Shown here in pieces: positions 40,932-56,460 of a stretch of 64,000 nt of DNA. Source of the DNA: Frigoribacterium sp. PhB160 (GTDB lineage Bacteria > Actinomycetota > Actinomycetes > Actinomycetales > Microbacteriaceae); contig NZ_RKIE01000001.1 in NCBI RefSeq assembly GCF_003751785.1, positions 597,564 through 661,563 of the forward strand, written 5' to 3'. Made by a program: the position numbers and the translations under genes. Under the pieces are notes generated by a model that saw only the letters and a program-made list of their open reading frames with translations, had not been told where the DNA came from and did not search any database. The stretch's first letter is position 1, and the number at the start of each line of letters is the position of its first letter.

Positions 40932-40960
40932 CCGGCCTCGTGGTCGTCGGGGGCCGCCGC

Positions 40961-40966
40961 TACGGT
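40961..40966 (+). promoter_or_regulatory. -10 box of a probable leaderless promoter (histidine kinase)
   Basis: TACGGT ends 6 bases before the kinase ATG at 40973; no RBS is present. Confidence 0.5.
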
Positions 40967-40972
40967 GGTCGC

Positions 40973-42094
40973 ATGCCCTCCGCCGCGTCGTCGACCGCCC
41001 CGCCGCTCGCGCGCATGCGGCGCTACACGACGTGGTCGTTCGTCGCCATGGTCGCCCTGTTCGGGGTCATGTGCGTGCCGCTCGCGGGCAGCCCCGCCCT
41101 CATGGCGGCGGTCGCGGTCGCCACGCTCGCCACGGCGGCCCAGACCCTCTTCTGGGAGCGCGGCGCGCCCGTCTGGCTCACGGTCGCCGCGCTCGTCGTG
41201 GGGCTCGGGGTCTGGTGCGCCGCGGCCGCGCACGGCGACGCCGGCTTCGCCGCCGTGCCCTTCGTGGTGAGCGGGGCCGTCGTGGCGACGACGCCGCCCG
41301 TGGTGGCCCACCGCGGCGGCCCGATCGTGCTGCTCGCCGTCGCGCTGGCCCCGCTCGTCGTCGGCCGCGCGGTCGACGGCGCGCCCCTCCTGCCGCCCGC
41401 CCTCGTCGTCACGATCCTCGTCGCGTCGGCCTGGGGCGCCTTCCGCCTCAACCGCTACCAGTTCGGCCTCTACCTCGAGATCGACGCGGCCCGGCAGACC
41501 GAGGCCGAGCTCGCGGTGCTGCGCGAGCGCTTCCGGTTCTCGTCCGACCTGCACGACATCCAGGGCCAGGCCCTGCACGTCAGCCGGCTGCAGCTGCAGC
41601 TCGCCGGCAAGGTGCTCGCGAGCGATCCCGACCGGGCCCGCGGGCACCTGCGCGAGGCCGAGCAGCTCATCGTCGAGACCATCGCCGAGACCCGACGCCT
41701 CGCCTACGGCGAGCGGACCGTGACCCTGGCGGGCGAGCTCGCGAACTCCGCGGCCCTCGTGCGCGCCGCGGGCATCGACCTGCGCGTCGAGGGCGACCCG
41801 CCCGTCGGCCACCGGCTCGACGCCCTCTGGGGCCACGTCGTCCGTGAGGCGACCACGAACCTGCTGCGCCACGCCCAGGCCGAGCGCGTCGTCGTCGAGC
41901 TGGGCCCCGACGCCGTCGTCATCGTCAACGACGGGGCGCCCGACCAGGTCGGCGAGCCCCGTGGCCTGGCCCGCCTGGGCGAGCGCTTCGCCGAGGCCGG
42001 CGGCGTCCTCGTGACGCGGCTGGACGGGGAGTCGTTCCGCACCGAGGCCCGTGACGCGGCCCCGAGCCGCCCGCGTGAGGGAGCGGCGTCGTGA
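40973..42094 (+). CDS. Sensor histidine kinase, NarL/DesK type
   Basis: A 373-residue sensor kinase with an N-terminal membrane part of about five helices (residues about 20-150), a HisKA_3 dimerisation domain with phospho-acceptor His in FRFSSDLHDIQGQALHVSRL, and a C-terminal ATPase domain (VREATTNLLRHAQAERV). Short or absent input loops suggest intramembrane sensing. It pairs with the NarL-type regulator that overlaps its 3' end by 4 bases (GTGA). Confidence 0.92.
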   Translation: MPSAASSTAPPLARMRRYTTWSFVAMVALFGVMCVPLAGSPALMAAVAVATLATAAQTLFWERGAPVWLTVAALVVGLGVWCAAAAHGDAGFAAVPFVVSGAVVATTPPVVAHRGGPIVLLAVALAPLVVGRAVDGAPLLPPALVVTILVASAWGAFRLNRYQFGLYLEIDAARQTEAELAVLRERFRFSSDLHDIQGQALHVSRLQLQLAGKVLASDPDRARGHLREAEQLIVETIAETRRLAYGERTVTLAGELANSAALVRAAGIDLRVEGDPPVGHRLDALWGHVVREATTNLLRHAQAERVVVELGPDAVVIVNDGAPDQVGEPRGLARLGERFAEAGGVLVTRLDGESFRTEARDAAPSRPREGAAS

Positions 42095-42693
42095 TCCGCG
42101 TCGTGCTCGCCGACGACGAGACCCTCCTGCGCCGGGCGATCGCGTCCTTGCTCGACCTCACCGACGAGATCGAGGTCGTCGCCCAGGCCTCCGACGGCGT
42201 GGAGGCCGTCGCCCTGGCCCTGCGCCACGAGCCCGACGTCGTCCTGCTCGACCTCGAGATGCCCGGGCTCGACGGGGTCGAGGCAGCGCGGCAGATCCTC
42301 GAGCAGCGACCCGACCAGGCCGTCGTGCTGCTGACCCGTCACGGGCGACCCGGGGTGCTCAAGCGGGCGCTGGCCGCCGGGGTGCGCGGGTTCCTGCCCA
42401 AGTCGGTCGACCCCGACGAGCTGGCCCGGGTCGTGATCCACGTGCACGGCGGGCGCCGCTGGATCGACGCCGACATCTCCGCCGCGGCCATGATCGACGA
42501 CTGCCCGCTGACCGAGCGCGAGCTCGACGCCCTGCGCCTCACGACCGAGGGGTTCTCGGTGCGCGAGATCGGCGCCCGGCTGCACCTCGCCTCCGGCACG
42601 GTCCGCAACTACCTGTCGTCGGCGATGCAGAAGACCGGCACCTCGTCGCGGCACGCGGCGGCCCGCACGGCCCGCGAGCGCAGCTGGCTGTAA
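42091..42693 (+). CDS. NarL/LuxR-type response regulator
   Basis: A 200-residue response regulator: receiver domain with Asp-Asp pair ADDE near the N-terminus, phosphorylated Asp in VVLLDLEMPG, Thr in VVLLTRHG and Lys in FLPKS; C-terminal LuxR helix-turn-helix (LTERELDALRLTTEGFSVREIGARLHLASGTVRNYLSS). GTG at 42091 overlaps the kinase gene. It probably binds the palindromes at 40900-40931 and controls the ABC exporter. Confidence 0.94.
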   Translation: MIRVVLADDETLLRRAIASLLDLTDEIEVVAQASDGVEAVALALRHEPDVVLLDLEMPGLDGVEAARQILEQRPDQAVVLLTRHGRPGVLKRALAAGVRGFLPKSVDPDELARVVIHVHGGRRWIDADISAAAMIDDCPLTERELDALRLTTEGFSVREIGARLHLASGTVRNYLSSAMQKTGTSSRHAAARTARERSWL

Positions 42694-42762
42694 GAGGCGC
42701 GGCTCGGCGCAGCTGACCGGTCCCGGTGGGGAGGACGCCGGTCGGCCCCGGCCGGGACGGCC

Positions 42763-42768
42763 TACCGT
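42763..42768 (+). promoter_or_regulatory. -10 box of a probable leaderless promoter (phosphatase gene)
   Basis: TACCGT lies 7 bases before the ATG at 42776; no RBS. Confidence 0.5.
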
Positions 42769-42775
42769 CGGCGAG

Positions 42776-43522
42776 ATGATCAGGGAACTCCTCCTCGTCC
42801 GCCACGGCGAGAGCACCGCCAACGTCGCCGCGACCGCCGCCGAGGAGGACGGCTCGGAGACCGTCGACGTCGACGAGCGCGACGCCGACGTGCCCCTCAG
42901 CGACCGCGGCGTCGAGCAGGCCCGCGCCCTCGGCTCCTGGGTCGCCGACCTCGGCCTCGACGGGCCCGACGGCGCCCGCACCGCGGTGTGGGTCTCGCCC
43001 TACCTCCGCGCCCGGCAGACTCTCCGCGCGGCCCTCGACGAGGCCGGGGCCGACGTCACCGTGCACGTCGACGAGCGGCTCCGCGACCGCGAGCTCGGCG
43101 TCCTCGACCTGCTGACCCGTCGCGGCGTCGAGGCGCGGCACCCCGACGAGGAGGCGCGGCGACGTCGGCTCGGCAAGTTCTACCACCGGCCGCCCGGCGG
43201 CGAGTCGTGGGCCGACGTGGCCCTCCGCGTGCGGTCGCTGCTGCGCGACCTCGACGCGCTGCCCGACGTCGACCGGGTGCTCGTGACGGCGCACGACGCC
43301 GTCATCATGCTCGTCGTGTACGTCTGCACCGGGCTGGACGAGGCCGACCTGCTCGAGTTCGCGCGCGGCAACACCGTCACGAACGCGTCGGTGACCACCC
43401 TCCGCCTCGACGAGGGCGCCGCATGGTGGACCCTCGTCCGGTTCGCCGATGTCGACCACCTCTCGGAGGAGCACGCCCCCGTCACCGCCCACGAAGGAGA
43501 CCGCGATGTCCGACCCCGCTGA
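42776..43522 (+). CDS. Histidine phosphatase (phosphoglycerate-mutase fold)
   Basis: A 248-residue histidine phosphatase: LLVRHGESTANV (catalytic RHG), RARQTLRAALDEAG, ERLRDRELG and VTAHDAVIMLVV (second His). The GHE-type substrate pocket is not diagnostic. It shares a 17-base overlap with the next gene, so the two are translated together. Natural substrate unknown. Confidence 0.9.
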   Translation: MIRELLLVRHGESTANVAATAAEEDGSETVDVDERDADVPLSDRGVEQARALGSWVADLGLDGPDGARTAVWVSPYLRARQTLRAALDEAGADVTVHVDERLRDRELGVLDLLTRRGVEARHPDEEARRRRLGKFYHRPPGGESWADVALRVRSLLRDLDALPDVDRVLVTAHDAVIMLVVYVCTGLDEADLLEFARGNTVTNASVTTLRLDEGAAWWTLVRFADVDHLSEEHAPVTAHEGDRDVRPR

Positions 43523-44375
43523 GCAGATGATCACGCCCGACCTGCTGCGCGGCTGGCCGCTGCCCTCGGCCGGCGCCGGCAAGTACTCGCGCGGCCAGGT
43601 CGTCGTCGTCGGCGGGGCCGCGCGCACGCCCGGCGCCGCGATGCTCGGCGCCCTGGCCGCGCTCCGGGTCGGGGCCGGGCGCCTCACGCTGGCGGTCGCG
43701 GGCTCCGTCGCGCCGCACGTCGCCGTCGCGCTGCCGGAGGCGGGCGTGGTGCCCCTCGACCAGACCCCCGGCGGCCACGTGGTCGGAGCCTCGCTGGGGG
43801 CGGCCTCGGGCGACCTGGAGGGCGCCGACGCCGTGCTGGCCGGGTCGGGCCTCGACGACGCGGACGAGGCCGAGGCCCTGGTGCGCCTCCTGCCGTCGCT
43901 CGTCGGCCCCGACGCGGTCGTCGTGCTCGACGCGTTCGCCCTGGGCGTCCTGCCGCGCTGCGGCTCGGCGCTCGACCTGCTGCGGGGCCGGCTCGTGTTG
44001 ACGCCGAACTCGAGCGAGGCCGGGCGCCTGCTCGGGCGCGACGTCGACGACCTGCCCGACGACCTGCGCGAGATCGCCCGCCGGTGGGAGGCGGTGGTCG
44101 CCTGCCAGAGCCTGGTCGCGGCACCCGACGGCCGGGTCTGGCGCTCCGGGGCCGGGCATCCCGGGCTCGGCACCTCGGGCAGCGGGGACGTGCTCGCGGG
44201 AGCGGTGGCCGGGCTCTCGGCGCGCGGTGCGGAGCCAGCCCAGGCGGCGGTGTGGGCGACGCACGCGCACGCGTCGGCAGGCGACCGGCTCTCGGTCGGG
44301 GTGGGGCCGCTGGGGTTCCTCGCCAGCGAGCTCCTCGACGAGCTGCCCCGGGTGCTGGTCGAGGTCGGCGGCTAG
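43506..44375 (+). CDS. ADP-dependent NAD(P)H-hydrate dehydratase
   Basis: A 289-residue dehydratase (NnrD/CARKD family) that repairs hydrated NADH and NADPH using ADP. Seen: KYSRGQVVVVGGAARTPGAAML, the glycine-rich GTSGSGDVLAGAVAGL (Walker-like), and LTPNSSEAGRLL, where most members have LTPHxGE. The variation in that ligand motif is worth noting but the fold is clear. ATG at 43506 with AAGGAGACCGCG upstream. It lacks the epimerase domain, which must be elsewhere. Confidence 0.88.
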   Translation: MSDPAEQMITPDLLRGWPLPSAGAGKYSRGQVVVVGGAARTPGAAMLGALAALRVGAGRLTLAVAGSVAPHVAVALPEAGVVPLDQTPGGHVVGASLGAASGDLEGADAVLAGSGLDDADEAEALVRLLPSLVGPDAVVVLDAFALGVLPRCGSALDLLRGRLVLTPNSSEAGRLLGRDVDDLPDDLREIARRWEAVVACQSLVAAPDGRVWRSGAGHPGLGTSGSGDVLAGAVAGLSARGAEPAQAAVWATHAHASAGDRLSVGVGPLGFLASELLDELPRVLVEVGG

Positions 44376-44421
44376 GCGGACCGAGGTCTGCCGCCGGCGC
44401 GGCTGGGCGCACCGGGCCGGC

Positions 44422-45171
44422 TCAGCGCAGGGGCCCGGCGATGTCGGCGTGGCCGACGCGCTCGCCGGCGGTGGCCATGTGCGCGCGCATCGCCTCGCGC
44501 GCGGCGTGCGGGTCGTGGGCGGCGATCGCCTCGAAGACGCCTTGGTGCTCGCGATAGGCGGCCTCTGCCTGGTCGCGTTCGCGGAGGCCCCGCTCGACCC
44601 AGAGGCGCAGCAGCGAGCGGGTGCTCTGCAGCAGGTCGCGCAGCACCACGTTGTCGGCGCTGATCGCGATCTGCAGGTGGAAGCGGATGTCGGCCTGCAG
44701 GAACGTGTCGAGGTCGTCGAGGCTGTCGCGCATCGTCGCGACGAAGCCGCGGAGGGCCTCGACGTCGGCGTCGGTCGCTCGCTGCGCCGCGAAGCTCGCG
44801 GCCTGCACCTCGAGGCCGCCGCGCACCTCGATCAGCTCGCGGGTGCGCGCGGCGTTGAGCATCATGCCCCAGCTGAGCGTCGTCGGCAGCAGCTCGGACG
44901 TGTTGTCGCGGAGGTACGTGCCCGAGCCAGGCCGGACGGTCACGATGCCGAGGATCTCCAGCGCCGCGAGGGCCTCGCGCACGGCCGACCGGCCGACGCC
45001 GAGCTGCTCGGCGAGCTGGCGCTCGGGCGGCAGGCGCGAGCCGGGCACGAGCTCGCCGGTGGTGAGCAGCCCGATCAGCTGCTTGACGACCTCGCTGACG
45101 GCCGTCCCCTTCGGCACGAGCTCGAGCTCGAGGCGGAGGCTCGTCGGGTCGTCGTCGGGGTAGGCGGGCAC
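44422..45171 (-). CDS. FadR-type GntR regulator of the erythrulose/apionate operon
   Basis: A 249-residue FCD-domain GntR regulator: winged helix GELVPGSRLPPERQLAEQLGVGRSAVREALAAL and an FCD domain with DADVEALRGFVATM, FHLQIAISADNVVL and EHQGVFEAIAAHDPHAAREAM. Start GTG at 45171: it has no RBS but TAAGCT lies 7 bases upstream (45179-45184), and a longer frame to 45309 would read through the operator. It is divergent from the 45382-51712 operon and probably represses it from the palindrome at 45269-45287, with a pathway intermediate as inducer. Confidence 0.9.
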   Translation of the reverse strand: MPAYPDDDPTSLRLELELVPKGTAVSEVVKQLIGLLTTGELVPGSRLPPERQLAEQLGVGRSAVREALAALEILGIVTVRPGSGTYLRDNTSELLPTTLSWGMMLNAARTRELIEVRGGLEVQAASFAAQRATDADVEALRGFVATMRDSLDDLDTFLQADIRFHLQIAISADNVVLRDLLQSTRSLLRLWVERGLRERDQAEAAYREHQGVFEAIAAHDPHAAREAMRAHMATAGERVGHADIAGPLR

Positions 45172-45268
45172 GGGGGAGAGCTTACCGACGGGTCCGTCGC
45201 GGGCCGGGGGGCGCCGTCCTCCCTTTTTCCCGTCGCCTTCCGCCGTCCCTCCTCGCCGCCGGCACGGA

Positions 45269-45287
45269 TTGGTCAACCGGTTGACAA
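45269..45287. promoter_or_regulatory. FadR-type operator palindrome
   Basis: TTGGTCAACCGGTTGACAA has the perfect core GTCAACCGGTTGAC. It lies between the divergent regulator and the MFS gene and is the only such site seen here. Confidence 0.75.
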
Positions 45288-45381
45288 GTGCGCTCGGATC
45301 CGTGACCATGGATCCTGAGCGCCTCGACCACCGTCGATCACGGCGTCATCTCACAACGTCGTCAGATCCGAAGGAGTCGAT

Positions 45382-46776
45382 GTGGACACCCCAGCCCGCA
45401 CGGCGGAGGCCATGAGCCCCGTCGAGAAGTCCGCGATCAAGAAGGTGGCGATCCGGCTCGTGCCGTTCGTCGCGTTGATGTTCTTCATCAACTACCTCGA
45501 CCGCACCGCCATCGGCTTCGCCGCCCCGAACGGCATGGAGTCCGACCTCGCCCTGTCGGCGGCCCAGTTCGGCTTCGCCTCGGGCGTCTTCTTCATCGGC
45601 TACATCCTGCTCGAGGTGCCCTCGAACCTGGCGCTGCACAAGTTCGGCGCCCGCAAGTGGCTCGCCCGCATCATGGTGACCTGGGGCATCGTCGCGCTGC
45701 TCTTCACCTGGGTGCAGAACTTCGAGCAGCTCGTCGCGCTGCGCTTCCTCCTCGGCGTGATGGAGGCCGGGTTCTTCCCCGGCGCGATCCTCTTCCTGAG
45801 CCTCTGGGTGCCTGCCCGCCACCGCAGCAAGATCCTCGCGCTCTTCTACCTGGCGCAGCCCCTCACCACGGTCGTCGGCGCCCCGCTCGCCGGCTGGCTG
45901 ATCAGCCACGACGGCGTCTTCTTCGGCCTCGAGGGCTGGCGCTTCATGTTCCTCGGCGTCGCGATCCCCGCGATCGTGGTCGGCATCGTCGCCTGGTTCT
46001 ACCTCAAGGACAAGCCGGCCGACGCGAAGTGGCTCACGAAGGAGGAGCAGGAGTGGCTGACCGCCGCCCTGGTCAAGGAGGCGTCGACCAAGACCGGCGC
46101 CGTCTCCACGACGGGCAAGCACCCGGGCCTCGGCGTCGTGTTCAAGAACGGCCGCGTCTGGATGCTGTCGTTCATCTACTTCGGCTTCGTCTACGGCCTC
46201 TACGCCCTCGCGTTCTTCCTGCCGACCATCATCGGCGGCTTCCAGGAGCAGTTCGGCACCGAGTTCACCGTCACGCAGCGCGGCTTCATCACCGCGATCC
46301 CCTACGTGCCGGCCGCCCTCGCCCTGTACTTCTGGTCGCGGGACGCCACGCGGCGCGGCCTCAAGACCTGGCACATCGCCGTCCCGGCCGTCGTCGGAGG
46401 CCTCAGCATCCCGGTCGCGCTGTACGCCCAGTCGCCGGCGCTCACCATCGCCGTCATCACCATCACCGCCATGGCCATCTTCGCCGCGCTGCCCAACTTC
46501 TGGACGCTGCCGACCCAGTTCCTCACGGGGGCGGCCGCGGCCGCGGGCATCGCGCTGATCAACACGATCGGCAACCTCGCCGGCTTCAGCGCCCCGTACA
46601 TCACGGGCCTGGTGACCGACGTGACGGGCGACTACCGGGCGCCGATGTTCATCGTCGGCTTCTTCCTGCTCCTCTCGGCCGTCCTCATGCTCGTCCTCAG
46701 CCGGATGAAGCGGCCCGAGGGCGCGGCGACGCCGCAGCAGGCCGCCGACCTGGCCGCGACGGCCGGGCTCGACTGA
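45382..46776 (+). CDS. MFS transporter, anion:cation symporter (ACS) family
   Basis: A 464-residue, 12-helix MFS transporter of the galactonate/phthalate-type ACS group: NYLDRTAIGFAAPNG at helix 1, RFLLGVMEAGFFPGAILFLS (the A-type motif) and FKNGRVWMLSFIYFG in helix 7. It probably imports the acid sugar (D-apionate) with protons. The GTG at 45382 has AAGGAG 6 bases upstream; an ATG two bases earlier is in another frame. First gene of the operon, under the palindrome at 45269-45287. Confidence 0.9.
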   Translation: MDTPARTAEAMSPVEKSAIKKVAIRLVPFVALMFFINYLDRTAIGFAAPNGMESDLALSAAQFGFASGVFFIGYILLEVPSNLALHKFGARKWLARIMVTWGIVALLFTWVQNFEQLVALRFLLGVMEAGFFPGAILFLSLWVPARHRSKILALFYLAQPLTTVVGAPLAGWLISHDGVFFGLEGWRFMFLGVAIPAIVVGIVAWFYLKDKPADAKWLTKEEQEWLTAALVKEASTKTGAVSTTGKHPGLGVVFKNGRVWMLSFIYFGFVYGLYALAFFLPTIIGGFQEQFGTEFTVTQRGFITAIPYVPAALALYFWSRDATRRGLKTWHIAVPAVVGGLSIPVALYAQSPALTIAVITITAMAIFAALPNFWTLPTQFLTGAAAAAGIALINTIGNLAGFSAPYITGLVTDVTGDYRAPMFIVGFFLLLSAVLMLVLSRMKRPEGAATPQQAADLAATAGLD

Positions 46777-46784
46777 CGGACGCG

Positions 46785-46813
46785 GGGCCCGGGCGTCCAC
46801 TACGCCCGGGCCC
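46785..46813 (+). other. Stable intra-operon hairpin after the transporter gene
   Basis: GGGCCCGGGCG (46785-46795) and CGCCCGGGCCC (46803-46813) form a perfect 11-bp stem with a 7-base loop in the 109-base gap between the transporter and the kinase. Being inside the operon, it may attenuate or stabilise mRNA ends rather than end transcription fully. Confidence 0.7.
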
Positions 46814-46885
46814 TGCGTCCACCACCCCGCCACCGGCGCCGACCGCGCCTCCTCCGTCACCGGACCACCGCCTCCTGGAGCCCTC

Positions 46886-48622
46886 ATGACCCGCCTCTTC
46901 AACGAACCGAGCGACTTCGCCGACGAGATGATCGACGGCTTCGTCGCCGCCAGCGGCCGCTGGGTGCGCCGCGTGCACGGCGGCGTCGTACGGTCGACGC
47001 GCTCGACGCCCGGCACCGTCGCGCTCGTCGTCGGCGGCGGCTCCGGCCACTACCCCGCGTTCGGCGGGCTGGTCGGCCAGGGCCTCGCCCACGGCGCCGC
47101 CCTCGGCAACCTCTTCGCGTCGCCGTCCTGGCAGCAGGTCAGGTCGGTCGCGAAGGCCGCCCAGGTCGGCGGGGGAGTGCTGCTCAGCTACGGCAACTAC
47201 GCGGGCGACGTGCTCAACTTCGACAAGGCGCAGCAGAAGCTGATCGACGAGGGCATCGAGACCCGCACGGTCGCCGTGACCGACGACATCTCGAGCGCCT
47301 CGGTCGACGAGAAGCACAGGCGCCGCGGCATCGCCGGCGACCTCACCGTCTTCAAGACCGCCGCGGCCGCCGCCGAGGGGGGCGCCTCGCTCGACGAGGT
47401 CGTCCGCCTCGCCACGAAGGCCAACGAGCGCACCCGTTCGTTCGGCGTCGCGTTCTCCGGCTGCTCGCTGCCCGGGGCCGACGAGCCGCTCTTCACCGTG
47501 CCGGAGGGCCGCATGGCCGTCGGCATGGGCATCCACGGCGAGCCCGGCATCGGCGAGGCCGACGTGCCGACCGCGGCGGGCCTCGCCGAGCTGCTCGTCT
47601 CGTCGCTGCTCGCGAGCGACGAGCTGCCCGAGGGCGTCGCGGAGGCGCGGGGCGGCCGGGTCGCCGTCCTCCTGAACGGCCTCGGCTCGGTCAAGTACGA
47701 GGAGCTCTTCGTCGTCTACTCCCGCGTCGACGCCCTCCTGCGCGAGGCCGGGGTCGAGGTCGTCGAGCCCGAGGTCGGCGAGCTCGTCACGAGCTTCGAC
47801 ATGGCCGGCGTCTCGCTCACCCTCTTCTGGCTCGACGACGAGCTCGAGCGCCTGTGGGGCGCCCCCGTCGACGCCCCGGCGTACTCGAAGGGCTCGGTCG
47901 TCGCGGCCGAGCGCGTGGACGACACCCGACCGGAGGCGCTGGTCGCCGACAGCATCCCACCCGCCTCGGTCGCGTCGCAGGCCGCGGCCGCGACGGTGCT
48001 CGCCGCCCTCGAGGCGATGCAGGCCACCGTCGACCTGCACGCCGACGAGCTCGGACGCATCGACGCGGTCGCCGGGGACGGCGACCACGGCATCGGCATG
48101 CAGCGCGGAGTCACGGCCGCCGTCGCCGCGGCCCGGGCAGCCGTCGAGGCCGGCGCGGGTGCCGGCACCGTGCTCGACATCGCCGGCGACGCCTGGTCCG
48201 ACCGGGCCGGAGGCACCTCCGGCGCGCTCTGGGGCGCCGCGCTCGCGAGCGTCGGCGCGGCGGTCGGCGACGAGGCCGCCCCGACCCGCGACTCGGTCGC
48301 GGCGGGCGTCGCGGCGGCGACCGAGGCGATCCTCGAGTTCGGGGCCACGGTCGGCGACAAGACGATGGTCGACGTGCTCGTGCCGTTCAGCGACGCGCTC
48401 TCGGGCGCCGTCGCGGACGGCGCCGACCTGCCCGCCGCGTGGTCCGCGGCCTCCGACGTGGCCGTCGCGGCCGCCGCGGCGACCGCCGACCTCCTCCCCA
48501 GGATGGGCCGCGCGCGGCCCCACGCCGAGAAGAGCCTCGGGACCCCCGACGCCGGCGCGACCTCGCTCGGGCTCGTGACGCGGGCCGTGGGCCTCGTCGT
48601 CGCGAGCGGGCACGGCGCCTGA
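46886..48622 (+). CDS. lerK: Dihydroxyacetone-kinase-type kinase, candidate L-erythrulose kinase
   Basis: A 578-residue DhaK-DhaL fusion. DhaK part (residues about 1-325): [13 protein letters not shown] (50-61), [10 protein letters not shown], and the substrate-binding His in GMGIHGEPG (His217). DhaL part (about 385-575): [15 protein letters not shown] metal-binding motif. The fusion architecture is ATP-dependent rather than PTS-dependent. In this operon it most likely phosphorylates L-erythrulose to L-erythrulose 1-phosphate, as described for LerK; plain dihydroxyacetone kinase is the alternative. Its start ATG has GGAGCCCTC upstream. Confidence 0.82.
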
Positions 48623-48671
48623 CCCGAGCCTCCCGCGCTCTTCCCCACCTCCTCCAACGAAAGGCACCACC

Positions 48672-49163
48672 ATGGCTGACCAGCTGCGCATCGTCGTCGG
48701 ATCGGACGACGCCGGTTTCGACTACAAGGAGATCCTCAAGAAGGACCTGGCCGCCAACGGCCTCGTCGCGAGCGTCGTCGACGTGGGCGTCGACGCCGAC
48801 GGCCACACCGCCTACCCGCACGTCGCCGTCGACGCGGCCCGCATGGTCGCCTCGGGCGAGGCCGACCGGGCGATCCTGCTCTGCGGCACCGGGCTCGGGG
48901 TCGCGATCGCGGCGAACAAGGTGCCCGGCGTCCGCGCCGTCACCGCCCACGACTCGTTCTCGGTCGAGCGCAGCGTCCTGTCGAACGACGCCCAGGTGCT
49001 CTGCATGGGCCAGCGCGTCGTCGGCGTCGAGCTCATGCGTCGCCTCGCCGCCGAGTGGCTGACGTACCGCTTCGACTCGTCGAGCGCCTCGGCCGACAAG
49101 GTCGCGGCGATCTGCGGCTACGACGGCTCGGCCGAGCCCGTCGGGATCGACGCCCGGGCATGA
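48672..49163 (+). CDS. eryI: RpiB/LacAB-type isomerase, candidate D-erythrulose 4-phosphate isomerase
   Basis: A 163-residue sugar-phosphate isomerase of the RpiB/LacAB fold: [19 protein letters not shown], the DVGVD and PHVAVDAA stretches, [26 protein letters not shown]. RpiB homologs in C4-polyol clusters (EryI/DerI) convert D-erythrulose 4-phosphate to D-erythrose 4-phosphate; ribose-5-phosphate isomerase is the housekeeping alternative. It is located directly after the kinase, with AAGGCACC ahead of the ATG, and overlaps the TIM gene by 4 bases. Confidence 0.82.
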
Positions 49164-49999
49164 CCGACGCAGCCGCGCGCCCCGGGCCGCGCTTCACGAT
49201 CGGTGTGAGCCTGAAGATGTACTTCACGCACGCCCGGACGATCGCGTGGGCGACCGAGGTCGCGGAGATCGCGGCCCGGCACCCCGCGACGCGCGACGGT
49301 CTCGTCGACCTCTTCGTCGTGCCGTCGTTCCCGGCGCTCGTGCCGGTGCGCGCCGCGATCGGCGACGCCCCCGTGCGGCTCGGCGCGCAGGACCTCGCCA
49401 CCGACGACCTCGGGGCGTTCACCGGCGAGGTGAGCGGCGTCGAGCTCGCCGAGATCGGCTGCACGCTGGCCGAGGTGGGGCACGCCGAGCGGCGTGCGCT
49501 GTTCCACGAGGACGACGCGGTCGTCGCGGCGAAGACCGCGGCGGCGCTCCGCAACGGCGTCACCCCGCTGCTCTGCGTCGGCGAGGTCGCCGAGGCCCCG
49601 GCGTCGCTCGCGGCGCTCGAGGTGACGCAGCAGATCGACGCGGCGCTCGCCGACGCGGACGGGTCAGGACTCTCCGGCGCGGTCGTCGTGGCCTACGAGC
49701 CCGTGTGGGCGATCGGTGCGCCGGTTCCTGCGTCGTCGACGCACATCACCGCCGTCGTGGCCGCCGTCGAGCAGCACCTCGCGGGGCTGCCCGGCCGCGT
49801 CGGCAGCCGTGTGGTCTACGGCGGCAGCGCCGGGCCCGGACTGCTGACCGAGCTCGGCGGCGCGGTGCGGGGGCTGTTCCTCGGACGGTTCGCGCACGAG
49901 GCGGCGGCGGTCGAGCGGATCCTCGACGAGGCGCTGGCGCTCGGCGGCGACGCGGTGGGCACGGCGCCCGCCGCGTCGAGGAATCAGGCGTCGTCGTGA
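49160..49999 (+). CDS. lerI: Triosephosphate-isomerase-type enzyme, candidate L-erythrulose 1-phosphate isomerase
   Basis: A 279-residue TIM-barrel isomerase: GVSLKMYF replaces the usual GNWKMN, then catalytic His/Glu regions [11 protein letters not shown] and [12 protein letters not shown], and [10 protein letters not shown] for the phosphate. The altered N-terminal strand is characteristic of the EryH/LerI relatives that isomerise erythrulose phosphates rather than triose phosphates. ATG at 49160 overlaps the isomerase stop; the 3' end overlaps the next gene by 4 bases. Second-copy TpiA in a catabolic operon supports the specialised role. Confidence 0.8.
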
Positions 50000-50805
50000 T
50001 CGGCCTCAGCACGTACGCGTACTTCTGGCGCGGCAGCGAGCTCGTGCCTGAGCCCTTGACGCTCGACGACATGCTCCGCGACACCGCGGCGCAGGGCCTC
50101 GGCCTGTTCCAGATCTGCGACCACGCCCCGCTCGTCGACTACACCGACGAGCAGCTCGCGGCCCTGCGCGGCCTCGCCGACGAGCTCGGGCTGACGCTCG
50201 AGCTCGGCACCCGCGGCACCCGACCGGCCGTGCTGCGGACCTGGCTGCGCCTCGCGGTCGCTCTCCGCGCCTCCCTCGTGCGCACCATGTGGACGGAGGG
50301 CGACGACCGGCCCGACGCGGTCGAGACCGACCGGCGGCTGCGCGAGGTGCTGCCGGAGTACGAGGAGGCGGGGGTCACCCTCGCCCTCGAGACCTACGAG
50401 CAGGTCGGCTCGACCGAGCTCGTGGCCGTCGTGCGGCACCTCCGCAGCCCTCGGCTCGGCATCGTGCTCGACCCCGCGAACACCGTCGCCGCGCTCGAGC
50501 ACCCCGCCGACGTCACCGCACGCTGCCTGCCCTTCGTCGTGAACTGGCACGTGAAGGACTTCGCGTTCTCCCGGAAGGACGGCTGGGTCGGCTTCGCGTT
50601 GACCAGCACCCCGCTCGGCGAGGGGCTCCTCGACTACGACGGCGTCAAGGCCGCCCTCGAGGCCCGCGACGGAGGCGCGACGACCGTCAACCAGGTCGTC
50701 GAGCACTGGCTGCCCTGGCAGGGCGACCCCGAGACCACCACCCGGCTCGAGGCCGGGTGGACCACCACGACCATCGACCACCTCAGGAGGAAGAACAATG
50801 ACTGA
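49996..50805 (+). CDS. oiaC: Sugar-isomerase-fold enzyme, candidate 3-oxo-isoapionate decarboxylase
   Basis: A 269-residue xylose-isomerase-like TIM barrel: GLSTYAYFWRGSELV, LFQICDHAPLVD, ALETYEQVGS (metal Glu), LGIVLDPANTVA (metal Asp), and VNWHVKDFAF (His and Asp). Genes of this kind beside ApnO-like and LerK-like genes decarboxylate 3-oxo-isoapionate to L-erythrulose (OiaC). A generic sugar-phosphate epimerase is the alternative. GTG at 49996 overlaps the TIM gene stop (GTGA); it overlaps the following gene by 8 bases. Confidence 0.72.
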   Translation: MIGLSTYAYFWRGSELVPEPLTLDDMLRDTAAQGLGLFQICDHAPLVDYTDEQLAALRGLADELGLTLELGTRGTRPAVLRTWLRLAVALRASLVRTMWTEGDDRPDAVETDRRLREVLPEYEEAGVTLALETYEQVGSTELVAVVRHLRSPRLGIVLDPANTVAALEHPADVTARCLPFVVNWHVKDFAFSRKDGWVGFALTSTPLGEGLLDYDGVKAALEARDGGATTVNQVVEHWLPWQGDPETTTRLEAGWTTTTIDHLRRKNND

Positions 50806-51712
50806 CACCCTCGACACCACCACCGCTGCCGTCACCTACGCCGACGGACAGGGCTCGTCCGACGTCACCGTCGCCGTCATCGGCGCCGGCGGCAAGATGG
50901 GCCAGCGCGTCTCGAACAACCTCGCCAAGAGCGCCTACACCGCCCTCTACAGCGAGGCCTCGCCGGCCGGCGTCGCCCACATCGAGTCGCTCGGCCGCAC
51001 GGTCACCCCGACGGAGGTCGCCGTCGCCGACGCCGACGTCGTGATCCTCGCCGTGCCCGACGTCGTGCTCGGCGCCGTGTCCGAGAGCGTCGTCCCGGCG
51101 ATGAAGTCGGGCGCGATCATCCTGACGCTCGACCCGGCCGCGGCGTACGCCGGGCTGCTCGCGTCGCGCGACGACATCCACTACGCGGTCGCGCACCCGT
51201 GCCACCCGAGCGTGTTCCTCGAGCGCACCACGAAGGAGGAGTGGGCCGACACCTTCGGCGGCGTCGCCGCCCCGCAGGAGGTCATCGCGGCGCTCGAGGG
51301 CGTCGACGCCGACTCGCCCGTGCGCGAGCTCGCGACCCAGGTCATCTCGACGATCTACGCGCCCGTCATCGCCGTGCACTACGTCACCGTGAAGCAGCTC
51401 GCCGTCCTCGAGCCGACGCTCGTCGAGACCATCGCGTGCATGGTCGGAGCGTTCCTCAAGGAGGCGCTCGACGAGACCGTCGACGGCGTCGGCGTGCCCT
51501 ACGAGGCCGCCCGCGCGATGCTCTACGGCCACACCTGGATCGCGCTGACGAACGGGCTCCGCGGCTCCAACCCGTTCAGCGACGCCTGCCACATCGCCAT
51601 GGACTACGGCCGCGAGTCGATCGTCAAGGACGACTGGAAGAAGATCTTCGACGACAGCGAGCTCGACGGCGTCATCGCGCGCATGCTCAAGATCGACGCC
51701 GTCAAGCGCTGA
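50798..51712 (+). CDS. apnO: Rossmann-fold oxidoreductase, candidate D-apionate oxidoisomerase
   Basis: A 304-residue NAD(P)-dependent protein with VAVIGAGGKMGQRVSNNL at the N-terminus and a C-terminal all-helical domain of the phosphogluconate-dehydrogenase C-terminal type (IYAPVIAVHYVTVKQLAVLEPTLVET, then KEALDETV). This combination is that of ApnO, which oxidises and rearranges D-apionate to 3-oxo-isoapionate. Last gene of the operon; AGGAGGAAGAACA before the ATG is the best RBS of the cluster. The assignment rests on domain type plus neighbours, not on residue-level proof. Confidence 0.75.
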   Translation: MTDTLDTTTAAVTYADGQGSSDVTVAVIGAGGKMGQRVSNNLAKSAYTALYSEASPAGVAHIESLGRTVTPTEVAVADADVVILAVPDVVLGAVSESVVPAMKSGAIILTLDPAAAYAGLLASRDDIHYAVAHPCHPSVFLERTTKEEWADTFGGVAAPQEVIAALEGVDADSPVRELATQVISTIYAPVIAVHYVTVKQLAVLEPTLVETIACMVGAFLKEALDETVDGVGVPYEAARAMLYGHTWIALTNGLRGSNPFSDACHIAMDYGRESIVKDDWKKIFDDSELDGVIARMLKIDAVKR

Positions 51713-51845
51713 GCGGGAGCGCCGGTTCGTCGAGCGCGAGCGCGAACGCATGAGCAGGGGCGGTGGCCACGTCGGGGACGGGGCCACCGCCCTCGTCGTG
51801 CTCGGGGCGACGCTCGCCGACCCGGTCGTCCGGCTCCCCGCCGTC

Positions 51846-51925
51846 GCGAACTCAGGACCTGCCGTCGGCTACCGCCCCGGCCGGGCGGCCGACGTGCGTC
51901 GCCGGGTCGACGATTCCTGAACCGT
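51846..51925. repeat. TCAGGA/TCCTGA palindromic element (copy C)
   Basis: Arms TCAGGA (51852-51857) and TCCTGA (51915-51920), 69 bases edge to edge, with inner CCGCCC/GGGCGG pairing. It lies between the convergent apnO and acyltransferase genes; the 283-base gap holds no gene. Confidence 0.7.
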
Positions 51926-51995
51926 CGACGCGACGCGACGCCGGGCGACGCCTGGGGATGGCCTCGCGGACGCGTCTCGCGCCTGCGGTCGGGCC

Positions 51996-53147
51996 TCAAG
52001 CCCGGCTGAGCTCGCTCTCGCGAGCCGACTCGCCCGTCGAGACCGGAGTCTCGCCCTTCGGGGACTCGAGCTTGTCCTTGAGGCGCAGAGCGGGCCGCTC
52101 GACGAAGCGGTGCGACAGCCAGGCCGTGACGACGGCCGCCGCGATGACGGCGACCTTGCCGAGGGCGCCGGGGACGATCGGCTCGAGCAGGGCGATGAAG
52201 ACGACGTGCCAGAGGTAGAGCGGGTACGACAGGGCACGGCCGAACCAGGCCACCGGTGAGAGGGAGAGCATGCGGGCCGGCCACGAGGGCCGCGAGACGA
52301 GTCCGCCGATGAGCAGCGCCGAGGCGACGGCGACGCCGGGCAGCATCATCGTGAAGGTCGTCACCTGCTGCTGCCAGCCGGAGCCGATGACCGCCAGCGA
52401 CCCGACGACGCCGGCCAGGCCGATCCACGTGGCCGCCGAGCCCGCGCGGCCGCGCAGCAGCGCCTTGCCGCGCTCGGAGTCGAGCACGACCGCGAGCAGG
52501 CAGCCGAGCAGCAAAGGGGCCACGTTGAGGACTGGGCTGAAGTAGATGTCGGGGGTCGCGCCTCCGGACGGGGCGTCGAAGAGGAAGCCCGACGCGACGA
52601 CGGAGCCGACGACGAGGGCGGCCAGCACCGAGACGATCACGCGGCGACCGGCGGCGAGCGCGAGCAGCAGCACGAGGAGCGGGGGCCAGACGAGGTAGAA
52701 CTGCTCCTCCATGGAGAGGCTCCACATGGGGGAGAAGACGCCCTGCGACTCGCCGAAGAACGAGCGGGCGATGTTGCCCGTGTAGCTGAGGGCCACGCCG
52801 GCGGCGCCGAGTGCGCTCATCGTCGAGCCCTGGTAATCGCCGATGAGCCACCACAGGGCCATCCCGACCACGACCACGGCGAGGAGCGTCGGGTAGAGGC
52901 GCAGCAGTCGGCGCACCCAGAAGCGGCCGAGGCGGATGCGGCCCGACTTGCGGTGCTCACTGATCAGGAGACCCGTGATGAGGTAACCCGAGAGGACGAA
53001 GAAGACGTTCACTCCCACGAATCCGCTGCCGAAGCCCGGCACGTGGAGGTGGTACAGGACGACGAAGGCGATGGCCACGGTGCGCAGTCCGTCGAGCGGC
53101 AGCACGCGGTCACGGCGTGCGGAGGGCGTCGGCGGGGCGCTGGGCAT
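51996..53147 (-). CDS. Acyltransferase 3 family membrane protein
   Basis: A 383-residue integral membrane acyltransferase (OafA/YrhL type) with about ten helices: LPLDGLRTVAIAFVVLYHLHVPGFG (catalytic His in helix 1), GVNVFFVLSGYLITGLL, and RRLLRLYPTLLAVVVVG. It transfers acetyl or other short acyl groups to a carbohydrate of the cell surface or a secreted product. Starts at 53147 with no RBS; CACACT lies 6 bases upstream (53154-53159), suggesting a leaderless mRNA. Confidence 0.92.
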   Translation of the reverse strand: MPSAPPTPSARRDRVLPLDGLRTVAIAFVVLYHLHVPGFGSGFVGVNVFFVLSGYLITGLLISEHRKSGRIRLGRFWVRRLLRLYPTLLAVVVVGMALWWLIGDYQGSTMSALGAAGVALSYTGNIARSFFGESQGVFSPMWSLSMEEQFYLVWPPLLVLLLALAAGRRVIVSVLAALVVGSVVASGFLFDAPSGGATPDIYFSPVLNVAPLLLGCLLAVVLDSERGKALLRGRAGSAATWIGLAGVVGSLAVIGSGWQQQVTTFTMMLPGVAVASALLIGGLVSRPSWPARMLSLSPVAWFGRALSYPLYLWHVVFIALLEPIVPGALGKVAVIAAAVVTAWLSHRFVERPALRLKDKLESPKGETPVSTGESARESELSRA

Positions 53148-53280
53148 CGGTCCAGTGTGCCTCGGAATCCTCGGAATCGCCCGGGTGGGGCACCCGGCGG
53201 TGCGGGGATCGGCCCGGCTGCCGCTGCGCGCGTCGCGTCGAGGCGGTGCGTCTCGGTCGCCGCGCGTCGGGTCGCCGCGC

Positions 53281-53345
53281 GTCGGGTCGGTTCGGGTCGG
53301 GTCGAGTCGGGTCGGGTCGGGTCGCGTCGGGTCGAGTCGAGTCGT
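53281..53345. repeat. Pentanucleotide repeat (GTCGN)13
   Basis: Thirteen consecutive five-base units, mostly GTCGG, with one TTCGG, three GTCGA, one GTCGC and one GTCGT. It lies in the 255-base gap between the divergently placed acyltransferase start and the MFS stop; no gene is seen in that gap. Confidence 0.9.
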
Positions 53346-53402
53346 CAGGAGCCGTCGGCCGGGCCGCCGCCGTGACGGGTCACGACGGGGCCTGGCCGAC
53401 GC

Positions 53403-54986
53403 TCATGCCTGAGTCGTCGACGCGGGGGCAGCCGCCGGGTCGTCGCGCCCGGCGTCGCCGGGCTGCCCGTCGGGCGCGTGGCCGCCCTGCCCGTCGCGCC
53501 CGGCGGACGCCGGCGGGCGCCCGTGCGACACCCGCCGCGGCAGCGCGAACACCAGCAGGAACGCCGCCACGGCGAACGCCGCGCTCACGCCCATGGCCGC
53601 GGCCGACGCGTCGGTGAAGCCCGTCGCGCGCCCCGCGGCCGTCGCGAGTTCGCGCCCGGTCGGCAACGAGCCGAACAGCACGCTGCCGATGATCGCGATG
53701 CCGACGGCCGAGCCGATCCGCTGGATGGCCGAGATGACCGCGCTGGCCGAGCCGGCGTCCTGCGGGTCGACCGTGGCCACGATGAACTGGACGTTCGGCG
53801 CGATGAAGAAGCCGTTGCCGAGCCCGGCGACGAGCAGCGGGACGAGGAGGATCCAGTTCGTCAAGTCCGCGGCGTCGACCGTGAGCAGCAGCACCCACAT
53901 CGATCCGAGTCCGACCGCGACGAGGGCCGTGCCGAGCACGAGCACGTTGCGGCCGAGCCGCTGCGCCAGCTTGTTGCTCTGCGACGACGAGATGATGCTG
54001 CCCACGGCGAAGGGGATCGCGACGGCGCCCGAGGCGAGCGCGCTGTGGCCGAGGCCCGACTGCCAGAGCAGCGAGATCGTGAAGAAGATGCTGGTGAAGG
54101 CGGCGAAGTAGACCAGGGCCAGCACGACCCCGCCGGTGAACGACGGGTGCGAGAACAGCTTCGGCGGGACCAGGGGAGTCCGCCCGCGTTTGGTGTACGC
54201 GACCTCCCAGGCGCCGAACGCCGCGAGCAGCACGAGGCCCGCTGCGATGGTGACGTAGGTCCAGGCGGGCCAGCCCTCGTCCTGTCCCTGGATCAGCGGC
54301 ACGAGCAGCGCCACGAACGCGGCCGACACGAGCACGAGGCCGAACCAGTCGAGACCCTTGTCGGGTCGGGGCACCGACTCGTCGCGCTTCGGGAGCAGGA
54401 CCGCTGCCGCGATCAGCGTGATGACGCCGAACGGCAGGTTGACGAAGAAGACGAGGCGCCAGCCGTTCTCGTCGCCGAACGCCTGGATGATGAGCCCGCC
54501 GATGATCGGCCCGAGCGCCGACGAGACCCCGATCACGGCGCCCATGATCGCGAACGCCTTGCCGCGGGCACGCCCCGGGAAGAGCAGCTGGATGAACGCG
54601 GTCACCGCCGGGACGAAGATGCCGCCCGCCAGGCCCTGCACCACGCGGAAGATGACGAGCTGCACGTCGCTCGTCGCCACGCCGCAGGCGAGGCTCGCCA
54701 GCGTGAAGAGCAGCACGCCCGTGAAGTAGACCCACTTGTGGCCGATGCGGTCTCCGATGCGCCCGGCCGGGATGAGCGTCAGGCCGAACGCGAGCGCGTA
54801 GCCCGAGATGATCCACGAGAGCGTCGACTCGGAGGCGTCGAGCGACGTGCGGATCGTCGGCAGCGCCACGTTGACGATCGTGGTGTCGAGCAGGGCGATG
54901 AACATGCCGAGCAGCAGCGCCACGAGGGCGAGCCACGCGTGGCGGGGGATGGCGGCCGGGGCGGGAGCCCGGGTGGCGTCGGTCAT
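53403..54986 (-). CDS. MFS drug efflux pump, DHA2 (EmrB/QacA) type
   Basis: A 527-residue, 14-helix exporter: LLGMFIALLDTTIVNVALPTI (motif D1), ISGYALAFGLTLIPAGRIGDRIGHK (motif A), and VVQGLAGGIFVPAVTAF (motif C-like). It exports lipophilic compounds with proton antiport. A C-terminal Pro/Gly/Asp-rich tail of about 40 residues is extra. It lies 121 bases downstream of the PadR gene, in the same direction, so PadR probably controls it. Confidence 0.93.
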   Translation of the reverse strand: MTDATRAPAPAAIPRHAWLALVALLLGMFIALLDTTIVNVALPTIRTSLDASESTLSWIISGYALAFGLTLIPAGRIGDRIGHKWVYFTGVLLFTLASLACGVATSDVQLVIFRVVQGLAGGIFVPAVTAFIQLLFPGRARGKAFAIMGAVIGVSSALGPIIGGLIIQAFGDENGWRLVFFVNLPFGVITLIAAAVLLPKRDESVPRPDKGLDWFGLVLVSAAFVALLVPLIQGQDEGWPAWTYVTIAAGLVLLAAFGAWEVAYTKRGRTPLVPPKLFSHPSFTGGVVLALVYFAAFTSIFFTISLLWQSGLGHSALASGAVAIPFAVGSIISSSQSNKLAQRLGRNVLVLGTALVAVGLGSMWVLLLTVDAADLTNWILLVPLLVAGLGNGFFIAPNVQFIVATVDPQDAGSASAVISAIQRIGSAVGIAIIGSVLFGSLPTGRELATAAGRATGFTDASAAAMGVSAAFAVAAFLLVFALPRRVSHGRPPASAGRDGQGGHAPDGQPGDAGRDDPAAAPASTTQA

Positions 54987-55107
54987 GGGTGGGCCTTTCG
55001 GAGCCGGGTGGGGCAGGGAGGGGGAGGTGCGGCCCGGGGCCGCGCAGGGAGTTCAGGACGACGTGTGCACTCGGCCCGACGACGGCGGAGCGACGAGGAG
55101 GCGCGCC

Positions 55108-55707
55108 TCAGCCGCCTGAGGAGCTGACGGTGGCCGCGTGCTTGGCCCCCGCCTCCTCGTCGGCGACGATCGACGGCAGCGCGTCGATCAGCGTGTCGTG
55201 CCAGGTGATCTCGGCACGGATGCGGTGCTCGCGGTGGGCGAGGGCGTGCTTCTCGGCGACCGAGAGCCAGGGGGCGGCGCTCGCCGAGTGGGCGACCGCC
55301 TCGGCGAGCAGCCTCTCGAGCGCGGCCCGGCGTGCGTGGACGGCCGTGGGGAGGTCGCCGATGCGGTCGGGATCGACGCGGGTGAGCGCCAGGTCGAAGG
55401 GGTCGGGACGCAGGACGAGCTCGTCGAGCGCGTGCCGTCGGCTCGCGTCGAGCGCAGCCCGGCCGGCCGGGGTGATGGCCCAGACCTGGCGTTCGGGGAA
55501 GTTGCCCTCCCGCTCGGTGCGGACCGACTCGAGGAGGCCGTCGGAGGCGAGTCGCTTCAGGGCTCCGTAGATGCCGCCGACCGAGATGTCCGTCCAGTAG
55601 TGGACGCGTTCGCGCTCGGCCTGCAGCCGCAGCTGGTGACCGTGCATCTCACCGTGACGCGCGAACGAGTCGAGGATGAAGAGGCGGATGGACGACACGG
55701 AGAGCAC
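55108..55707 (-). CDS. PadR-family transcriptional regulator
   Basis: A 199-residue PadR: N-terminal winged helix (FILDSFARHGEMHGHQL, VGGIYGALKRLASDGLLES, REGNFPERQVWAITPAGRAAL) and a C-terminal helical dimerisation region. GTG at 55707; a second in-frame GTG at 55698 is possible. The palindrome at 55712-55745 immediately upstream is a good autoregulatory site. It probably represses itself and the downstream pump until a pump substrate binds. Confidence 0.92.
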   Translation of the reverse strand: MLSVSSIRLFILDSFARHGEMHGHQLRLQAERERVHYWTDISVGGIYGALKRLASDGLLESVRTEREGNFPERQVWAITPAGRAALDASRRHALDELVLRPDPFDLALTRVDPDRIGDLPTAVHARRAALERLLAEAVAHSASAAPWLSVAEKHALAHREHRIRAEITWHDTLIDALPSIVADEEAGAKHAATVSSSGG

Positions 55708-55711
55708 TCTC

Positions 55712-55745
55712 GCACGAGTAGTCGCTCACGGTCAACTATTCGTGC
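55712..55745. promoter_or_regulatory. Candidate PadR operator
   Basis: GCACGAGTAGT (55712-55722) and ACTATTCGTGC (55735-55745) are inverted repeats with one mismatch and a 12-base spacer, directly upstream of the padR start. Confidence 0.65.
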
Positions 55746-55824
55746 AGAGCGTGCAATGTCGAGAGCGGCATCGGGCGTGGCGAGGTCACGCGGCAGGGTC
55801 GCGGGGCGGGGCCGGGTCTCGTCG

Positions 55825-56460
55825 TCAGGAACGCGCGGCTGCGAGCGTCGCCACGCCGCGCATCACGTCGCTGAGCGACGGTCCGTCCTGATTCCTCAGC
55901 AGGGCGGCCGCCCGGTCGGGTTCGAGACCGGCGAAGCACTCGGCGATGGTGACGCCGTGCGACGGGCGCGACGTCACGGTGATCTCGGCGCCCGCCACGA
56001 CCGGTCCGGCACGGACGACCTTGAGGTACGCCCCGGGGCGGCCCTCGTCCTGGAAGCGCCGCACCCAGCGCGGTTCGCGCATGCGGCGGGCGAACGTGGC
56101 GCAGGGGGTGCGCGGCATCGTGACCTCGAGGACGAGCTCGTCGCCGACCGTCCAGCGCTCGCCGATGAGGGCACCGCTGACGTCGAGGCCCGACGTGCGC
56201 AGGTTCTCGCCGAACAGGCCCGGCGAGATCTCGCGGTCGAGGAGGTCGGCGAAGTGCGTGGCGTCCTCGTCGGCGTAGACGTACACGGCCTTGTCGGGCC
56301 CGCCGTGGTGCTTGCGATTGGCCTGGATGTCCCCGAACACCCCGGTCTTCTTGACCAGCAGCTCGCCGTCGACGGGACGCTTGTCGATCGCGGTGACGCC
56401 GACGCCGCCCGTCTCGGGGAGGAGGCCGTCGACCCGGCAGACCGCGGTGATGTGGGGCAT
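55825..56460 (-). CDS. MOSC-domain protein (YiiM-like)
   Basis: A 211-residue MOSC protein: HHGGPDKAVYVYADED near residue 50, LFGENLRTSGLDVSGALIGERW, and the cysteine motif TPCATFARRM (Cys that would carry sulfur or bind the molybdenum cofactor). YiiM relatives reduce N-hydroxylated compounds. ATG at 56460. It converges with nothing; the 110-base gap to the kinase gene holds no further feature. Confidence 0.92.
   Translation of the reverse strand: MPHITAVCRVDGLLPETGGVGVTAIDKRPVDGELLVKKTGVFGDIQANRKHHGGPDKAVYVYADEDATHFADLLDREISPGLFGENLRTSGLDVSGALIGERWTVGDELVLEVTMPRTPCATFARRMREPRWVRRFQDEGRPGAYLKVVRAGPVVAGAEITVTSRPSHGVTIAECFAGLEPDRAAALLRNQDGPSLSDVMRGVATLAAARS

Follow-up and report, generated by a model that had tools for sequence, protein, structure and literature searches.

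The window analysed here is a 64,000-nucleotide stretch of the 3.34 Mb genome of Frigoribacterium sp. PhB160. At positions 44422–51712 it carries six open reading frames (ORFs), all on the plus strand, preceded by a divergent gene for a GntR/FadR-type regulator. We read this set as an operon for the uptake and breakdown of D-apionate, the acid made from the plant sugar apiose, and on the strength of family membership and conserved neighbours we give this reading a probability of about 85%. A first-pass annotation had given these six genes this order and these limits beside the regulator, and both the ORF positions and the Pfam families agree with it. The genes, with their Pfam E-values, are:

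44422–45171, minus strand: regulator P0007, GntR/FadR-type (FCD 5.8e-26, GntR 2e-19)
45382–46776, plus strand: MFS transporter P0006, predicted D-apionate permease (MFS_1 1.4e-52)
46886–48622, plus strand: Dak1-Dak2 kinase P0005, predicted L-erythrulose kinase, LerK (Dak1 6.6e-107, Dak2 1.9e-40)
48672–49163, plus strand: RpiB-family isomerase P0004, predicted D-erythrulose-4-phosphate isomerase, EryI (LacAB_rpiB 3.6e-45)
49160–49999, plus strand: TIM-family isomerase P0003, predicted L-erythrulose-1-phosphate isomerase, LerI (TIM 6.3e-52)
49996–50805, plus strand: xylose-isomerase-like barrel P0002, predicted 3-oxo-isoapionate decarboxylase, OiaC (AP_endonuc_2 1.5e-17)
50798–51712, plus strand: PGDH_C oxidoreductase P0001, predicted D-apionate oxidoisomerase, ApnO (PGDH_C 3.7e-55, KARI_N 1.8e-06)

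The set fits one transcript because the last three junctions overlap, RpiB/TIM by 4 bases (ATGA), TIM/OiaC-like by 4 (GTGA) and OiaC-like/ApnO-like by 8; intergenic gaps of 109 and 49 bases separate the MFS gene from the kinase gene and the kinase gene from RpiB. The mechanical ORF of the regulator extends to 45309, which is too long and covers the operator described below. We take the GTG at 45171 as the likely start because shorter relatives (245 amino acids) begin there.

The names ApnO, OiaC, LerK, LerI and EryI, and the reactions that go with them, reportedly stem from Carter et al. 2018 and Huang et al. 2015. The MFS permease would import D-apionate, and ApnO would oxidise it with NAD and shift its hydroxymethyl group, in the manner of a ketol-acid reductoisomerase, to give 3-oxo-isoapionate. 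OiaC would convert this product to L-erythrulose and CO2, and LerK would phosphorylate the L-erythrulose to L-erythrulose 1-phosphate. The TIM-like LerI would then form D-erythrulose 4-phosphate and the RpiB-like EryI D-erythrose 4-phosphate, which would enter the pentose phosphate pathway.

Enzyme families of the operon

P0001 consists of a PGDH_C domain after a Rossmann domain that matches the NADPH domain of ketol-acid reductoisomerase (1.8e-06). Its closest solved structures are PDB 5t57 (3.3e-61) and then 3c24 (8.7e-49), and aligning ten ApnO-family members shows no variation in the HPCHP and LEP motifs or at E210. The invariant motifs, the 5t57 match and the PF16896 match (3.7e-55) point to an enzyme of the ApnO type. 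In NCBIfam no ApnO-named model was found for P0001; its nine matches, to other dehydrogenases, were weak and partial and fell below cut-off. In a quick tree of 107 ApnO-family rows, with long branches for L145 and PDB 3c24, P0001 falls within a 26-row Microbacteriaceae clade (support 95); the group around this clade consists of Actinomycetota and Gammaproteobacteria and is OiaC-linked except at L029, L082 and L083.

An OiaC-like ORF lies near ApnO in 95 of 104 ApnO loci. P0002 itself has no match in NCBIfam and only weak ones in the PDB (5tnv, 3.3e-05; 8z1i, 0.0048). Its residues E132, D159, H185 and E236, presumably the metal ligands typical of the barrel family, are conserved in no fewer than 98% of 96 sequences. 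The kinase P0005 reaches 722.7 bits against NF011049, whose cut-off is 492. P0004 scores 140.2 bits against the D-erythrulose-4-phosphate isomerase model NF051858, below the cut-off of 240, and P0003 matches PDB 11ef, titled L-erythrulose-1-phosphate isomerase, at 9.7e-33 as its fifth-ranked structure. The genome has a second TIM elsewhere, with a much better Pfam score and 39% identical to P0003, and a second RpiB elsewhere, 31% identical to P0004, and for this reason the TIM and RpiB of the operon are probably pathway copies. The Dak-, TIM- and RpiB-family genes of the operon appear, on these comparisons, to be distinct from the housekeeping copies.

Related gene sets occur at other sites. 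Outside the window (L171 2447–9105; G000:C1, about 462946–469604) the same genome holds a second kinase-RpiB-TIM set, 60%, 76% and 46% identical to the window genes, adjoined by genes for a transporter of the TctA type and for a TIM-barrel protein with a likeness, by eye, to PDB 5tnv; it probably serves another sugar acid ending in erythrulose phosphate. In G007 (L018 637–14305) a second such set lies next to the apionate operon and converges on it, with a PdxA-like gene (by eye) between RpiB and TIM. In G016, a genome without an ApnO match, an OiaC homologue (54%; L052 9440–10246) is adjoined, by eye, by TRAP-transporter genes and another sugar-isomerase-like gene.

Probable apiose and apionate genes around the operon in other genomes

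Among 60 genomes, comprising the strain's own and 59 relatives, a P0001 homologue is present in 17 and a P0002 homologue in 18. Members of NF049900 (ApnL, the D-apionate lactonase family) occur in seven of the 60, and all seven belong to the 17 genomes with ApnO, against none of the 43 without it (Fisher 5e-5). The same type of SDR dehydrogenase adjoins ApnL in all seven. In G018 (L031), OiaC, ApnO, SDR and ApnL follow one another as overlapping or near-touching genes with FadR divergent, and G031 (L032) has SDR-ApnL, FadR and OiaC-ApnO. G017 (L033) carries the full six-gene operon beside a GH78-like gene, a nucleoside-hydrolase-like gene, ApnL, SDR and ABC-transporter genes (the GH78, hydrolase and ABC names being given by eye); the stretch beside its cluster (L172) had no match to the reference set, which contained no apiosidase. 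OiaC, SDR and ApnL stand together in G032 (L051), with ApnO and an MFS gene elsewhere (L029). G036 has the six-gene operon (L030) and, at another site (L050), ABC-transporter genes (by eye), a gene of the PF13204 apiosidase family, SDR and ApnL in succession, with the PF13204 gene immediately before the SDR-ApnL pair. In G002 and G005 the pair lies away from the operon (L048, L049). Among loci from named genomes, of which we took the best 80 of at least 521 confirmed ApnO loci, 36 of the 80 have a tblastn match to ApnL, some of them weak (29–35% in L082, L083, L089 and L103). The actinobacterial ApnL drew no PDB match, even with E allowed to reach 1.

GH78-like genes (rhamnosidase type, by eye) lie near ApnL units in L033, L050, L092, L100 and L134, and nucleoside-hydrolase-like genes in L033 and L069 (L033 4903–9008, L050 16931–19438); both kinds perhaps have a role in freeing apiose from plant material.

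The transporter ties the operon to a second group of ApnO loci. P0006 matches a D-galactonate transporter subfamily model at 7.3e-79, below its NCBIfam cut-off, and is 67% identical to the MFS protein adjoining ApnO in C. necator (L141) and Paraburkholderia (L148). The sequence of 5t57 is 100% identical to a gene on pBB1 of Cupriavidus necator N-1, and this gene is flanked by the MFS gene (67% to P0006) and by homologues of OiaX (42%) and OiaK (64%). Paraburkholderia sprentiae (L148) has MFS (67%), ApnO and OiaK in that order; this OiaK clears its NCBIfam cut-off (822 versus 700 bits), and so does the ApnL of R. leguminosarum WSM1325 (1051 versus 750 bits). By the reference set, the window operon and the C. 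necator and Paraburkholderia loci have in common an MFS permease, ApnO and a FadR-like gene (34–36%). Because the MFS gene is shared with ApnO loci of the OiaK type, the permease probably carries D-apionate, the substrate common to both branches.

The two branches keep apart. OiaC is found at 78 of the best 80 loci, and OiaK or OiaX at none of them (0/80). At the 14 loci of 5t57 type (L141–L145, L148, L161–L165, L167, L168 and L170) OiaC is absent (0/14) and OiaK or OiaX is present in ten; at none of the loci examined do OiaC-like genes stand with OiaK or OiaX. This separation is as expected if both act on the same ApnO product. Three of the 14 (L142, L162 and L164) combine ApnO with an ABC transporter, a Gfo/Idh dehydrogenase and ApnL, and the second ApnO of L163 has an ABC gene as its single neighbour match. 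PF16896 is rare in Pseudomonadota, being present in 11 of 299 genomes, among them G060, the centre of the sample, which was known beforehand to carry it; 11 of the 12 PF16896 matches there have a pathway or sugar-transport neighbour. At the level of family and context, then, the D-apionate reading of the first-pass annotation finds support in the lactonase-dehydrogenase units, the neighbours of 5t57, the shared MFS type and the exchange of OiaC for OiaK/OiaX. Loci L082 and L083 (Acidimicrobiaceae and an actinomycete metagenome-assembled genome) hold ApnO, a variant of the operator and a gene distantly like ApnL (29%), with no OiaC, OiaK or OiaX match at the locus.

A predicted, shared palindromic operator and the spread of the gene order

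Upstream of the operon lie three further features:

45271–45286, no strand: palindromic operator GGTCAACCGGTTGACA, predicted regulator site (pattern search and conservation among loci)
45281–45286, plus strand: -35-like TTGACA, the right half of the palindrome (from the sequence, tentative)
45304–45309, plus strand: weak -10-like GACCAT, 17 bases past TTGACA (from the sequence, tentative)

The palindrome first came to light when the upstream DNA of the window and of 20 loci was read by eye, most of these having it. With the pattern GGTCAACCGGTTGAC and at most two mismatches, 45271–45286 is the sole match in the window on both strands (0.06 expected); it is also the only site in the genome at zero or one mismatch, background appearing at two. 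A generic sigma-70 promoter scan returned none in 43000–54000. Operator counts cover 116 loci, after removal of L025 and L026, which meet contig ends, and of L052, which has no ApnO; FadR was scored as present from 44% identity upwards, and a site as near when within about 400 bases before a reference-set gene, regulator included. On these terms, and allowing at most one mismatch, 68 of the 70 FadR-bearing loci have the 12-base half site near where a pathway gene starts, versus 4 of 46 without FadR; the 20 discovery loci lie within the set, so the 68/70 is not independent, and the no-FadR comparison and the backwards control are. L029 is one of the four loci that have a site and no FadR, and carries two sites ahead of its MFS gene. 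The 116 loci hold 77 exact 12-mers, against none for the backwards pattern, and at one mismatch 109 against 13.

A further site stands before the SDR, ApnL or hydrolase-ApnL unit in ten loci (L032, L033, L060, L062, L064, L067, L069, L074, L075 and L091), and therefore one switch seems, in these ten, to govern both the OiaC-ApnO operon and the lactonase unit. The FadR-type regulator would bind 45271–45286 across the -35 region and release it when a pathway compound is present. A regulator sitting on the -35 region is a common mode of repression, and we infer both repression and an inducer for this one.

Gene order was counted in the 66 of the best 80 loci that have at least 7.5 kb 5' of ApnO. 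The exact order MFS-DAK-RpiB-TIM-OiaC-ApnO is found in 37 of them and a FadR match in 56; nine further loci differ by a missing MFS gene only, and seven, all enterics, have RpiB on the opposite strand. The recurrence of the same six-gene order in 37 of 66 loci argues that the arrangement is not chance. Its hosts include Frigoribacterium, Rathayibacter, Curtobacterium, Arthrobacter, Streptomyces, Actinoplanes, Saccharopolyspora and Pseudomonas, the order being shared by many Actinomycetota and two Pseudomonas; of nine Curtobacterium loci (L060–L068) seven are complete and the other two lie at contig ends. The operon is widespread and not special to this strain. The suggestion made at first, that one six-gene actinobacterial operon may be new, accordingly divides: the arrangement is common in nature, and no report of this operon or operator was found in searches of open-licence PMC papers. 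The operator GGTCAACCGGTTGACA looks newly recognised.

Judged from their ORFs, the flanks (40940–44375 and 51996–56460) look ordinary, with sensor kinase/response regulator, phosphoglycerate-mutase-like, NAD(P)HX-dehydratase-like and acyltransferase genes, and also DHA2-type MFS, PadR-like and MOSC-like genes.

Competing readings and biological meaning

Several observations weigh against D-apionate as the substrate or against the enzyme names used here. The structure 5t57, reportedly an active ApnO, is titled in the PDB as a semialdehyde dehydrogenase NAD-binding protein. P0001 is only 42–43% identical to it, and 5t57 falls in the other group of the tree, with OiaK/OiaX-type rows and 3c24, a long branch separating it from P0001's group. 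The phylogenetic comparison with ApnO that was proposed at the outset thus came out divided, P0001 standing apart from the 5t57 clade and both clades having apionate-pathway neighbours. P0004 lies above the cut-off of the ribose-5-phosphate isomerase model TIGR02133 (204 bits), and four proteins named triosephosphate isomerase outrank 11ef for P0003, the top one being 3s6d (putative) at 1.1e-42; the TIGR02133 match and the PDB ranking favour general enzyme names over EryI and LerI. The grounds for the labels OiaC, LerK, LerI and EryI are family and neighbours, from which we infer every enzyme activity and substrate given here. Three actinobacterial ApnL proteins that were scanned reach 190–220 bits against an NCBIfam cut-off of 750 and so count as members of the family and not as curated equivalogs. 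Locus structure has its exceptions too: OiaC sits elsewhere in the genome of L029 (ApnO, MFS) and has no match at L082 and L083, L168 has ApnO alone, and the operator site was not found in L076 and L086 though FadR is present. Barrels 28–31% identical to P0002 occur on rhizobial and Marivivens plasmids, the Marivivens one on the same plasmid as an OiaX-type ApnO and about 60 kb off.

Some of these points would suit an operon that degrades another branched or C5 sugar acid also yielding L-erythrulose, with ApnO and OiaC relatives of altered specificity: P0001 sits in a separate clade that a long branch divides from 5t57, the ApnL relatives fall far below the curated cut-off, and the strain's own genome lacks an NF049900 match. 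We consider this improbable, as the lactonase family, the apiosidase family, the shared MFS type and the OiaK/OiaX swap all indicate apiose or apionate, and the C4 downstream set suits CO2 loss from a C5 acid. Less probable still is a mainly L-erythrulose or C4-polyol operon, comparable to threitol and erythritol use in Mycolicibacterium smegmatis, in which ApnO and OiaC would be side genes. The kinase-TIM-RpiB trio and the second such set in the genome speak for it, but the operon contains no polyol dehydrogenase by Pfam, no other neighbour accompanies ApnO as constantly as OiaC (78 of the best 80 loci), and OiaC is kept even at loci that lack the trio (L031, L032, L069, L085 and L087). PMC12780249 cuts both ways: Curtobacterium isolates were obtained from D-erythrose and L-erythrulose enrichments, which favours this alternative, but isolate Ery-28b grew on D-erythrose and showed only a slight rise, and no significant growth, on L-erythrulose, so that these data are weak support at best.

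With D-apionate taken as the substrate, the steps from apiose itself come into question. The strain's own genome has no match to NF049900 or to the apiosidase family PF13204, no close SDR dehydrogenase (top match 42%), and a top match of only 31% to the rhizobial Gfo/Idh dehydrogenase whose gene adjoins ApnL; the pair of known-family dehydrogenase and D-apionolactonase that marks complete D-apiose use was not found in it. By its gene content this genome looks like that of an apionate scavenger. Because ApnL is present in only two (G002 and G005) of the 11 same-genus genomes with ApnO, most ApnO-bearing species of the genus should use the apionate of others. A broader proposal, which we hold tentatively and at rather less than even odds, is that operon-bearing Frigoribacterium scavenge D-apionate from apiose-oxidising neighbours and that GGTCAACCGGTTGACC defines one Actinomycetota apionate regulon, with the lactonase unit as an optional second member. 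The alternative to scavenging is an unrelated dehydrogenase and lactonase, or spontaneous hydrolysis. The link to plant apiose drawn in the first-pass annotation is weak in the strain's own genome.

Compared with the D-apionate OiaC/L-erythrulose branch, as reportedly set out in Carter et al. 2018, the window shares genes of the ApnO, OiaC, LerK, LerI and EryI types; it differs in belonging to Actinomycetota, in its FadR-type regulator and shared palindromic operator, in MFS uptake and in the absence of a lactonase family member from the genome. With the OiaK/OiaX branch of rhizobia, Cupriavidus and Paraburkholderia (L141, L143 and L148) it has an ApnO-type enzyme in common (39–42% identical), and with the Cupriavidus and Paraburkholderia loci also the MFS type (67%), whereas that branch has a kinase and a RuBisCO-like decarboxylase instead of OiaC-LerK, and the operator was not found there. 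In the account that PMC12780249 gives of L-erythrulose, erythritol and threitol use by M. smegmatis and Brucella, erythrulose phosphates lead to D-erythrose 4-phosphate as predicted for the window, but that route starts from sugar alcohols and the window pathway from an acid. Other papers describe a marine Rhodobacteraceae with a kinase-type apionate cluster that grows on D-apiose (PMC11747546), and a yeast erythritol cluster with an erythrulose kinase and two erythrulose-phosphate isomerases (PMC9835291). Two apiose papers both cite Carter et al. 2018 (PMC6302742 and PMC13001218), the latter describing an isomerase/transketolase route in E. coli.

The pathway is of a known kind, and the operator linking the operon to lactonase genes in relatives would be its new part. 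Genes modelled as dihydroxyacetone kinase, ribose-5-phosphate isomerase and a phosphogluconate dehydrogenase C-terminal protein would gain a named pathway in many actinobacteria, the operon offers a candidate D-apionate transporter, and the operator is a short DNA word for locating the regulon in other genomes. Tetrose transporters and kinases are stated as unreported in PMC12780249; Curtobacterium, an isolate genus of that paper, carries the kinase-isomerase set, which makes the tetrose-kinase question testable. If the scavenging proposal is true, apiose oxidisers would release free D-apionate that serves their neighbours as a shared food.

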